A stretch of DNA of 64,000 nt, taken from positions 222,265-286,264 of the forward strand of contig NZ_AOIS01000037.1 of NCBI RefSeq assembly GCF_000337495.1, written 5' to 3'. How positions within the stretch are numbered: position 1 is the stretch's first letter; each line of letters begins with the position of its first letter. The notes under the pieces are model-generated. The model was not told the origin of the DNA. It did not search any database and saw nothing but the letters and a program-made list of their open reading frames with translations. Below, piece by piece: positions 17,002 to 21,058 of the stretch. The DNA comes from Haloterrigena salina JCM 13891 (GTDB lineage Archaea > Halobacteriota > Halobacteria > Halobacteriales > Natrialbaceae). Both the position numbers and the translations under genes were made by a program.

Positions 17002-17223
17002 AGTCGTACGACGGTGTTGTCCGGTCGGCGTTATAAAACGCACGTATTCGTACGACCGTGGCGGCGACGAGCCGATCGGCCCGCCGTCGGGCGGTAGTGA
17101 CGGCGAAACCGGACGGCGCCGCGGGCGGATCGCTGGAGAGAGCGCGGTGGGTCGGCCGGTTCCCGCTCACTGGGAGCGTAGGGGGTGTTTATTGAAGCGG
17201 TCCTGTGGTATTCCTACGCATTG

Positions 17224-17913
17224 ATGCGTCAGTACGAACTTCGGCTCTCGCCGCAGGGAGGGTGGTTTCATCCGTTCGAAAAGCGGATCGATCGCCGCGA
17301 AGGGGTCGACCGCGTGGCGATCCACCGGATCCGTCTCCGTCCCGACGGGCTCGGGGTGATGGTCTACGAACTCGCGGGGGAGTTCGAACGCGTCGAGGCG
17401 CTCGTCGACGAGGAGCTCGGCGATCTCGGCTACTGGATCGAGGAGTTCGGCGACCGAATCTTCGTCTGTTCGCGGTTCGTTCCGAACGAGACCGTCAGCG
17501 AACTCCTGCGGGTGACGCGGGACTTCCAGGTGTTCCTCGACCCGCCACTGACGTACGTCCGCGGGGGCGATCTCAAGGTGTCGCTGTTCGCGACCGAGGA
17601 GTCGTTCCAGCGGGCGCGGTCGGTCGTGCCCGACACCGTCGATCTCACCCTCGAGACGAAGCAGCCGTTCGAACCCGAGGAGAACGTCTTCCTCGCGTCG
17701 CTCACGCCGAAACAGCGCCGGCTGTTCGAGACGGCGATCGAACTCGGCTACTACGGCTCGCCCCGGGAGACGACCTACGAGGAGATCGGCCGCGAGGTCG
17801 GCATCGCGGGCGGGACGGTCGGCGAACACCTCCGGAAGATCGAGGCGAAACTCGTCGATCACGTCGTCTCGGCCTCGGTCACGGAGTCGCCGAAGCGACG
17901 ACAGCTCCAGTGA
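17224..17913 (+). CDS. Bat-type HTH-10 transcriptional regulator
   Basis: A 229-residue protein starting MRQYELRLSPQGGWFHPF. The N-terminal two thirds is an alpha/beta sensor-like domain seen in small haloarchaeal Bat homologues. The C terminus LTPKQRRLFETAIELGYYGSPRETTYEEIGREVGI then GGTVGEHLRKIEAKL is the bacterio-opsin activator HTH_10. It is a one-component regulator without PAS or GAF domains. Targets are unknown. The cystathionine synthase gene 60 bases downstream on the same strand is one candidate. Confidence 0.87.
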   Translation: MRQYELRLSPQGGWFHPFEKRIDRREGVDRVAIHRIRLRPDGLGVMVYELAGEFERVEALVDEELGDLGYWIEEFGDRIFVCSRFVPNETVSELLRVTRDFQVFLDPPLTYVRGGDLKVSLFATEESFQRARSVVPDTVDLTLETKQPFEPEENVFLASLTPKQRRLFETAIELGYYGSPRETTYEEIGREVGIAGGTVGEHLRKIEAKLVDHVVSASVTESPKRRQLQ

Positions 17914-17973: not shown

Positions 17974-19179
17974 ATGGACGACTCCGACAGCGACGGTGAC
18001 GGCGTCGACGAACGCGGCGAGCAGGAGCCGCACCGAATCGAAACCCGCTCGATCCACGCCGGGCAGGCGCCCGATCCCGAAACGGGCGCGCTGATGACGC
18101 CGATCCACGCGAACTCCACCTACAAACAGGACGCGCCGGGCGACCACCGCGGCTACGAGTACTCCCGGACCGGGAACCCGACCCGGACGGACTTAGAGGA
18201 AAACCTCGCGAGCCTCGAGAACGCCGACTACGGCCGTGCGTTCGCCAGCGGGATGGCCTCGATCAACACCGTGCTCAACCTCCTCGAGGCCGGCGATCAC
18301 GTCGTCACCGGCAACGACGTCTACGGCGGCACCCACCGCATCTTCACGCAGGTCTACGAGGAGTACGATATCGAGTTCTCGTTCGTCGATATGACCGACT
18401 TAGACGAGATCGAGGCGGCGTTCCGCGAGGAAACGGAACTGCTCTGGCTCGAGACGCCGACCAACCCGCTCATGTCGATCGTCGATATCGCGGGCGCGGC
18501 CGACATCGCCCACGACAACGACGCGCTGTGTGCGATCGACAACACCTTCGCGACGCCGTACCTCCAGCGCCCCCTCGATCTGGGCGCGGATATCGTCTCC
18601 CACTCCCTGACGAAGTATCTGGGCGGTCACTCGGACGTCGTCGGCGGCGCCCTGTTGACCAACGACGCCGACCTCGACGAGCGACTTGGCTTCTACCAGA
18701 ACTCCGTCGGCGCGACGCCGGGCCCCTTCGAGTCCTTCCTCGTCCTCCGGGGCACCAAGACGCTGCCAGTCCGCATGGACCGCCACTGCGAGAACGCCCG
18801 CGCGATCGCCGAGTGGCTCGACGACCACCCCGACGTCGATCGGGTCTACTACCCCGGCCTCGAGTCCCACCCGGGCCACGAGATCGCCGCCGAGCAGATG
18901 GACGACTTCGGCGGGATGCTGAGCTTCGAACTCGACGCGAGCTTAGAGGAGGCCAGCGAGGTCGTCTCGAACACCGAGGTCTTCACCCTCGCGGAGAGCC
19001 TCGGCGGCGTCGAGAGCCTGATCGAACAGCCTGCGCCGATGACCCACGCCGCCATTCCGCGCGAGGAACGGCTCGAGGCCGGCCTCTCGGACAGCCTCAT
19101 CCGCGCGAGCATCGGCATCGAACACGTCGACGACCTGATCGGCGACCTCGAGTGCGCGATCGAGACGGCACTCGAGTAA
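17974..19179 (+). CDS. Cystathionine gamma-synthase/lyase-family PLP enzyme
   Basis: A 401-residue fold-type I PLP enzyme. SIHAGQAPDPETGA opens the core. YEYSRTGNPTR near residue 65 binds the PLP phosphate across the dimer. FASGMASINTVL near 90 follows, then AIDNTFATPYLQRP near 188. SHSLTKYLGGHSD near 210 carries the Schiff-base Lys. Substrate could be O-acetylhomoserine, cystathionine or methionine. The acidic head of about 20 residues is a halophilic extension. Sulfur amino acid metabolism fits the methionine synthase genes earlier in the window. Confidence 0.88.
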   Translation: MDDSDSDGDGVDERGEQEPHRIETRSIHAGQAPDPETGALMTPIHANSTYKQDAPGDHRGYEYSRTGNPTRTDLEENLASLENADYGRAFASGMASINTVLNLLEAGDHVVTGNDVYGGTHRIFTQVYEEYDIEFSFVDMTDLDEIEAAFREETELLWLETPTNPLMSIVDIAGAADIAHDNDALCAIDNTFATPYLQRPLDLGADIVSHSLTKYLGGHSDVVGGALLTNDADLDERLGFYQNSVGATPGPFESFLVLRGTKTLPVRMDRHCENARAIAEWLDDHPDVDRVYYPGLESHPGHEIAAEQMDDFGGMLSFELDASLEEASEVVSNTEVFTLAESLGGVESLIEQPAPMTHAAIPREERLEAGLSDSLIRASIGIEHVDDLIGDLECAIETALE

Positions 19180-19229: not shown

Positions 19230-20225
19230 TCAGGCCCCGCCCCGACGGGCGAGTTGCGAGCGGAAGATCGGGACGAACCCGTCGAGGTACGCTCGAACGT
19301 CGACGGACGCGATCTCGCCGCAGTAGTCGGCGCCCCGCTCGTACTCGCGGCGCCACCGATCGACGAACGCGGCTTCGATGCCGGCGTCGCGGATCCGTTC
19401 GGCGATCACGCTGACCGCCTCCGCAGACGGCTCCCGTCGGAGCGCCCGGAGTTCGTCGATCGACACGACGCCGGACTCGAGGGCGCGGACCACGACACCG
19501 GAACTGTAGTCGCCCTCGGCGAGTTCGCGCTCCCAGGAGGCGATCCAGTTTCCGATTCGCGCCATCCGCTGGCCGCGGGCGACGACGTCCCGAACGGCCG
19601 AGAGGTCGCGTCGCTCGAACTCGGGCGCGTTGGCGAGATCGATGTCGGCGAACGGGAAGAGCATCATGTTGTAGACGTCGTAGGTCTGGAGTTCGCGCTC
19701 GCCGGCGAGGCCGGGATACCGGGCCAGCAGCGCCGAGTAGTCGACCGACTGGAGCGCCTGCCGCACGTCGAACCGGAACAGCGGCTCGAACTCCTCGGCC
19801 CGCGGGCCCTCCCGGAACTGCGACAGCAGCGCGTCCCAGAGCTCCTGCTGGAATCGAACGTACGCGCCGTCGACGCCGTCGCGCGTCGGATCGGCGGGCC
19901 GCGAGTCGAACGGGACGAGCAGCAGTTCCTCGAGGGTCGCCCGGTCGCCGTGTCGCTCTGCGACGTCGTCGATAACGGTGATGAACATCGTGGCGAGCAC
20001 CTTTGCGTCGCGAACGCACCGTCCGCGCTCGTCGTTGACACACGACAGGCGAAACTCGGGCTCGACCGCGTCGAACCACCGCCACGTGGATCGGTCCCGA
20101 TCGCCGATCCGGTCGTCGTAGGCGTCGGCCAGCGGCCGAACCGTTTCCGAGAGCGTCCGCGTCGGTGCGTTCGCAAACGGATCAATCTCGTCCTCGAGGC
20201 TGGGGAACTGCGACTCGGCTACCAT
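19230..20225 (-). CDS. Class I terpene-synthase-like protein
   Basis: A 331-residue, all-helical-looking protein with the two metal-binding motifs of class I terpene cyclases. ITVIDDVAERHGD puts a DDxxE at residues 86-90. GNWIASWERELAEGD puts an NxxxSxxxE at 226-234, followed by acidic GD as in microbial cyclases. The spacing of 140 residues and the overall length fit bacterial sesqui- or diterpene cyclases. It would ionise a prenyl diphosphate with three Mg ions. There is no signal or membrane segment. It is convergent with the cystathionine gene, with GGGTGA before the ATG and a TATA-like GATTTAAAC near 20272-20280. The product is unknown. Confidence 0.6.
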   Translation of the reverse strand: MVAESQFPSLEDEIDPFANAPTRTLSETVRPLADAYDDRIGDRDRSTWRWFDAVEPEFRLSCVNDERGRCVRDAKVLATMFITVIDDVAERHGDRATLEELLLVPFDSRPADPTRDGVDGAYVRFQQELWDALLSQFREGPRAEEFEPLFRFDVRQALQSVDYSALLARYPGLAGERELQTYDVYNMMLFPFADIDLANAPEFERRDLSAVRDVVARGQRMARIGNWIASWERELAEGDYSSGVVVRALESGVVSIDELRALRREPSAEAVSVIAERIRDAGIEAAFVDRWRREYERGADYCGEIASVDVRAYLDGFVPIFRSQLARRGGA

Positions 20226-20365
20226 CGTTCACCCAAAAGATAGCTGAAACTAAAAATGTTTTCTGCTAATTGTTTAAATCGTAATATGCCGTTGGCGCCC
20301 CACGGCGAACGACGCGAGGAAACCGGACGGACAGTCCTTTCGTGCTGGGAGCGAACGACTCGAGT

Positions 20366-21058
20366 ATGCCGGCAGACGAACGCGAGGCGGGCGTCCACAC
20401 GCTCCCGATCACGGTCGAGTACGGTAGTCGAACGATTACGCTCACCCCGACGCTGGTCGAGACCGAGCGCGGACCGGTCCTGATCGACGCCGGCCCGGAG
20501 GGCGCGCTCGAAGGTCTTCGAACGCACCTCCGGTCGCTCGGCTACGCCCTCGAGGACATCTGGCTCGTCGTTCTCACCCACCACGACGCCGATCACGCGG
20601 GCGGACTCGACGCGTTGCTCGAGGCCGTCGACGCGGTCGTTGCGACCCACCGCGAGGAGGCGCCGTACATCACCGGCGAGCGCGATCCGATCAAGGGCGA
20701 CGGCGATCGCTATCCCCCCGTCGACGTCGATCTGGAACTCGCCGGCGGCGTCCGGATTCCGACCCTCGCCGGCCCGATGGAGGTCCTCGAGACGCCGGGC
20801 CACGCGCCCGGACACGTTTCCCTGTACTTTCCGGAGGACGGCTTCTTGATCGCCGGGGACGCTCTCGTCGCTGACGGGGATGATGGCTCGCTGTCGGGCC
20901 CGAAGCCTGACTTCACGCCCGACATGGATCGCGCCCTCGAATCCGTCGAGAAACTGGTCGATCACGAGATCGAGCACGTCGTTTGCTACCACGGCGGCTA
21001 CGTCGACAGCGGGAGCGACCGGATTCGGGAACTCTTCGAGCGCGGACTCGAGGACTGA
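20366..21058 (+). CDS. MBL-fold metallo-hydrolase
   Basis: A 230-residue metallo-beta-lactamase fold protein starting MPADEREAGVHTLPI. THHDADHAGG near residue 73 is the HxHxDH zinc motif in its THHDADH form. ETPGHAPGHVSLYF near 140 holds the third His. IAGDALVADG near 160 supplies the bridging Asp. VVCYHGG near 210 holds the last His. Members cleave thioesters, lactones or other esters. The gene is divergent from the terpene-synthase-like gene and shares its promoter region. Confidence 0.87.
   Translation: MPADEREAGVHTLPITVEYGSRTITLTPTLVETERGPVLIDAGPEGALEGLRTHLRSLGYALEDIWLVVLTHHDADHAGGLDALLEAVDAVVATHREEAPYITGERDPIKGDGDRYPPVDVDLELAGGVRIPTLAGPMEVLETPGHAPGHVSLYFPEDGFLIAGDALVADGDDGSLSGPKPDFTPDMDRALESVEKLVDHEIEHVVCYHGGYVDSGSDRIRELFERGLED

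Follow-up and report, generated by a model that had tools for sequence, protein, structure and literature searches.

A putative class I terpene synthase of Haloterrigena salina, from a divergent archaeal family

Introduction

Most catalogued terpene synthases come from plants, fungi and bacteria. An open reading frame of the haloarchaeon Haloterrigena salina JCM 13891, located in a window of 64,000 nucleotides (the whole stretch of DNA analysed here; contig NZ_AOIS01000037.1, positions 222,265 to 286,264), raises the question of whether a soluble class I enzyme of this kind is also encoded in an archaeal genome. A preliminary description, made from the nucleotide sequence alone, proposed a class I terpene-synthase-like protein and remarked that little has been written on such enzymes in haloarchaea. 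This remark holds in part. The literature searched contained no paper on class I terpene synthases of haloarchaea, and relatives of the family carry the label hypothetical, but terpenoid biosynthesis in archaea is the subject of a preprint (Samusevich et al., bioRxiv 10.1101/2024.01.29.577750, cited in PMC12797696), whose general claim, as conveyed by the paper citing it, resembles the present one: archaea possess terpene synthases. The present work therefore lays no claim to priority on archaeal terpene synthases. MARTS-DB calls archaeal entries rare, and its archaeal reference is a prenyltransferase (PMC12797696). The contribution here is the definition of a family and of its spread, divergent second metal motif and gene-cluster context.

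The Gene and Its Upstream Region

The coding sequence of the putative class I terpene synthase, assigned to an archaeal subfamily on the basis of its translation, a match to PF19086, a fold model and conservation, occupies positions 19230–20225 of the window. It is read from the minus strand, with the ATG at 20225 and the stop codon ending at 19230 in the ORF translation; the strand was absent from the preliminary description and is established here. The product of 331 residues is acidic (63 Asp plus Glu versus 43 Arg plus Lys) and, as had been proposed, is devoid of a membrane segment, the highest 19-residue Kyte-Doolittle mean being 1.06. The gene is under purifying selection, with pairwise dN/dS values of 0.15–0.30 against five relatives.

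An AT-rich region of 116 bp (20226–20341; minus strand with respect to the synthase) precedes the gene and is shared with a divergent metallo-hydrolase gene. Its GC content is 47%, compared with 67% for the window. A TATA-like TTTAAA (20278–20273, minus strand) and a GGTGA (20233–20229, minus strand) are present by sight-reading, consistent with the ribosome-binding site and TATA element previously ascribed to the gene; the upstream block is kept within the genus and not outside it.

Metal-Binding Motifs and Their Conservation

The translation contains the two motifs on which the initial assignment was built, DDxxE and, 140 residues further on, NxxxSxxxE. Translation and homologue alignment identify the first predicted metal-binding motif as DDVAE at residues 86–90 (19956–19970, minus strand) and the second as NWIASWERE at residues 226–234 (19524–19550, minus strand). 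By itself this pair is weak and needs independent support, because 1.1% of shuffles of the same protein carry such a pair at a spacing of 120–165 residues. The independent support comes from conservation. Both motifs are intact in 69 of 69 full-length homologues from haloarchaea, with identities as low as about 26%, which excludes a chance origin; homologues that have lost both motifs, which had been named as grounds for abandoning the assignment, were not seen in this set.

The first motif takes the form [D/N]Dxx[D/E] in all 69 sequences: D87 is invariant, position 86 is Asp in 66 and Asn in 3, and position 90 is always Glu or Asp. In the second, N226, W227, W231 and E234 are invariant, and position 230 is always Thr or Ser. 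A basic residue precedes the final Glu in the usual motif NDxxSxx[RK]E, and R233, which corresponds to it, is found as Arg in 67 of the 69. When seven methanogen sequences were added to an alignment, both motifs remained intact in 38 of its 39 rows. A fast-evolving subgroup (L060, L057 and L062) has NDxxD as its first motif instead of DDxx[DE], together with a perfect second motif.

Distribution of the Family

About a third of the haloarchaeal genomes sampled carry a member of the family: homologues occur in 121 of 394 genomes of the order, in 108 of the 347 good assemblies and in 44 of 95 genera. Identity to the query in the same search ran from 96 down to 29%, with at most three copies per genome. 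With the family profile, members were also detected in eight genomes that contain methyl-coenzyme M reductase (mcrA), i.e., methanogens. One methanogen group branches with the haloarchaeal sequences in the tree; a second, to which a Methanosarcinaceae-like lineage is assigned by inference, lies far out. A pattern search for named relatives returned seven loci, mostly from Natrinema, and public plasmid records contain six relatives, all labelled 'hypothetical protein'.

Neighbours of the Window Copy

The synthase gene lies between two syntenic neighbours on the plus strand, a divergent gene for an MBL-fold metallo-hydrolase (20342–21058; PF00753, 1.9e-26) and a convergent gene of the cystathionine gamma-synthase type (17974–19179; PF01053, 1.4e-152). 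No terpene tailoring enzyme is found among the window neighbours of the synthase, which are the hydrolase, the cystathionine gamma-synthase-type gene and a regulator, so that the earlier remark on the lack of obvious adjoining pathway partners is accurate for this copy. The regulator, of the HVO_0513 type with an HTH_10 domain, is encoded at 17185–17913, two genes from the synthase; a link between the two is without evidence.

The MBL-fold hydrolase adjoins the synthase in most Natrialbaceae loci and was considered as a pathway partner. This was rejected, as the hydrolase is commoner than the synthase (96 versus 51 of 125 Natrialbaceae genomes) and stays in place in G305, a genome from the same genus that lacks the synthase. 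In the latter genome the two flanking genes are only 94 bp apart (L115, 4369–6339), and this empty site between the same flanking genes indicates that the synthase has been gained or lost cleanly at a fixed site.

Gene Context of the Relatives

Elsewhere in the family, 5 of 42 loci have a P450 gene within about 3 kb of the synthase, against an expectation of 0.31 calculated from genome sizes and the numbers of P450s (P about 1.5e-5; 2e-4 when two genomes belonging to the same genus are taken as one; tested after the pattern had been seen in part of the loci). These loci belong to distant relatives and not to the lineage of the window copy. Albaflavenone monooxygenase and pentalenene oxygenase are sesquiterpene oxidases, and these are the best NCBIfam matches of the linked P450s, with scores under the cut-offs of those models. 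A family of proteins of about 180 residues travels with the P450-linked synthases (L059, 6107–6646 and 8302–8916; L069, 4248–4874; L077, 5996–7112; L055, 6318–6908); these proteins have no Pfam or NCBIfam match.

In one genome, a second copy (G260; L103, 963–16821, at G260:C1:543000–562900; also L063) lies within a low-GC region (56%). Encoded alongside it are two P450s, two FAD enzymes that belong to the geranylgeranyl-reductase superfamily, a prenyltransferase of the UbiA type, a SnoaL-like protein and two methyltransferases, one an O-methyltransferase and the other closest to geranyl diphosphate 2-C-methyltransferase. Together these genes have the appearance of a full terpenoid gene cluster of an archaeon. 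By eye, it is flanked by two similar SdhC-like genes.

Regulatory genes are also found beside family members. A FilR1-type (HVO_A0261-like) HTH regulator adjoins the synthase in seven loci of several families (L038, L040, L041, L042, L046, L049 and L066), and in some loci it overlaps the synthase gene or lies within a few bases of it, which suggests that the two form an operon. A large regulator with response-regulator, PAS, GAF, BAT and HTH_10 domains is adjacent in six loci of three families (L047, L050, L052, L065, L068 and L070), in differing orientations.

Family Assignment and Predicted Fold

A search against profiles of terpene synthase families, as proposed in the preliminary description, places the protein in Terpene_syn_C_2 (PF19086), although marginally: residues 80–256 match at 23.8 bits, 0.1 bit above the curated cut-off of 23.7. 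No other Pfam family exceeds its cut-off for this protein, and in the whole genome the synthase is the sole match to Terpene_syn_C_2. The candidate assignment is shared by the relatives, since 38 of 48 diverse family members match the same profile individually at E ≤ 0.1, the best at 3e-7. NCBIfam models gave zero matches to the protein itself and, across the homologue family, one weak match only (isoafricanol synthase, E 0.075). Two other classes of isoprenoid enzymes were rejected: a membrane terpene synthase of the UbiA type, given the hydropathy profile and the lack of a UbiA match, and a squalene/phytoene synthase, as SQS_PSY has no match at E ≤ 10.

The AlphaFold2 model, obtained with an input of eight sequences (the query and seven relatives), is all-helical with a pLDDT of 83.4 and a pTM of 0.83, the other four of the five models being lower at 59–75. 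In the model, the first motif is at the end of helix 65–92 and the second is on helix 205–236, a placement that agrees with the fold. When this model was compared with the PDB by Foldseek, 43 matches reached E ≤ 1e-3, all of them class I isoprenoid synthases, at moderate similarity (TM 0.42–0.60, rmsd 6–12 Å). They comprise bacterial and fungal terpene synthases, including T-muurolol, epi-cubebol and epi-isozizaene synthases and a Streptomyces diterpene synthase, and also farnesyl and polyprenyl diphosphate synthases. The predicted fold is thus the class I isoprenoid-synthase alpha fold, and a fold of another kind, which would have spoken against the assignment, did not appear.

Among the fold matches is also 5nx5, a linalool/nerolidol synthase with a linear product, in line with the idea that an enzyme of terpene-synthase fold ionises a prenyl diphosphate and releases a linear alcohol or alkene, i.e., acts as a prenyl-diphosphate lyase or hydrolase. 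All that the sequence says about the metal site would hold for such an enzyme too, but most characterised enzymes bearing these motifs cyclise their substrates, and the P450s beside the relatives resemble oxidases of cyclic sesquiterpenes, so that a linear product appears rather unlikely.

The fold alone cannot separate a terpene synthase from a prenyl synthase, because prenyl diphosphate synthases are among the best matches. In addition, haloarchaea need several prenyl diphosphate synthases, and a divergent trans-prenyl diphosphate synthase performing chain elongation with IPP would fit both observations. The two types are told apart by the second motif and by the missing match to polyprenyl_synt (PF00348): the protein has no match to this profile at E ≤ 10, whereas the three trans-prenyl diphosphate synthases of the genome match it at 6e-55 or better, and at the second site all 69 homologues have N-xxx-[ST]-xxx-E rather than a second DDxxD. 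The motifs are of the terpene-synthase type and not of the chain-elongating type, and a presence in about a third of genomes ill suits a core lipid enzyme; chain elongation was rejected as a very improbable function. A protein that has lost catalysis and serves in binding or regulation with a terpene-synthase fold can practically be dismissed, for although neither the usual sensor Arg nor the RY pair can be recognised (see below) and many relatives adjoin the PAS/GAF/BAT/HTH_10 regulators or share an apparent operon with the FilR1-type HTH regulator, every haloarchaeal homologue retains the metal ligands and the gene is under purifying selection, whereas a non-catalytic protein should lose some of these ligands.

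Proposed Function

The product of the gene is very probably a soluble class I terpene synthase that depends on Mg2+, as judged from the sequence and the fold model. The initial proposal of a class I terpene-synthase-like protein is supported computationally by the presence and conservation of the motifs, by the fold and purifying selection, and by the terpene-type P450 oxidases beside relatives; from these we infer metal binding, ionisation, cyclisation, a substrate and a product. Metal binding and ionisation follow from terpene-synthase motifs. A prenyl diphosphate (C15, C20 or C25), supplied by one of the three trans-prenyl diphosphate synthases of the genome, would bind in the helical cavity, where three Mg2+ ions held by D86, D87 and E90 together with N226, S230 and E234 would pull off the diphosphate. 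The resulting allylic cation may then cyclise or rearrange in a hydrophobic pocket and be quenched through proton loss or water. As no tailoring gene is adjacent, the product of the window copy probably either stays unmodified after release or is modified by enzymes whose genes lie elsewhere.

If this reading is true, terpenoid chemistry would be ordinary in archaea and missed by annotation, the family being widespread, reaching into methanogens and labelled hypothetical. The relatives located beside genes for terpene-oxidising P450s point to a little-known natural-product chemistry of archaea, and the family supplies specific enzymes, and at least one specific gene cluster, for experimental work. 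Its divergent active site can reveal which of the known catalytic parts are indispensable.

Comparison with Known Systems

The bacterial PF19086 enzymes, such as T-muurolol, epi-isozizaene and epi-cubebol synthases, have the helical alpha fold in common with the predicted structure of the archaeal protein. In both, a single domain of about 330 residues carries DDxx[DE] followed about 140 residues later by NxxxSxxxE, with a basic residue before the last Glu. Sequence similarity between the two groups is nevertheless near the detection limit, and the second motif differs, being N-W-x-x-[ST]-W-x-R-E in the archaeal family and N-D-x-x-S-x-x-[RK]-E in the bacterial enzymes.

In the bacterial enzymes, a diphosphate-sensor Arg, a member of the effector triad, is located 46 residues before the second motif. 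The effector triad of class I terpene synthases has been discussed previously (PMC10563020). At the equivalent residue 180, no conserved Arg is present in the 69 homologues: the window copy has Gln, and Trp (28 of 69) and Arg (14 of 69) are accompanied by Leu and other residues; this comparison is by sequence position, and a structure could reveal another Arg in the role. Likewise, no C-terminal RY pair is conserved in the homologue alignment, in which residues 322–324 vary. The archaeal family instead has R43, W48, W50, D196, R212, R223 and D239 as additional invariant residues relative to the bacterial enzymes, and the three Arg residues are invariant throughout the haloarchaeal homologues. 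A tentative view is that the archaeal branch might sense and ionise its substrate via R43, R212, R223, D196 and W227/W231 rather than via the known effector triad, and that it might underlie a broad archaeal terpenoid chemistry, possibly fed by the C20 and C25 diphosphates used for archaeal lipids, with P450 clusters in some genera.

When the family profile is compared with PDB sequences, the natural matches are terpene synthases only (Sat1646, E 0.055; Stt4548, 0.78; and 9rrz), all weak and below significance. The closest of them, Sat1646 and Stt4548 (7e4n, 7e4m), are solved bacterial terpene synthases in which RLSNDLASYERDIRSGD aligns over the second motif, again below significance, with RIGNWxxTWERExxEGD of the family, so that ND stands where the archaeal family has NW. 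The trans-prenyl diphosphate synthases (PF00348) share the overall fold and the first Asp-rich motif with the putative archaeal synthase, and differ from its family in the second motif, in the profile match and in the patchy distribution of the family.
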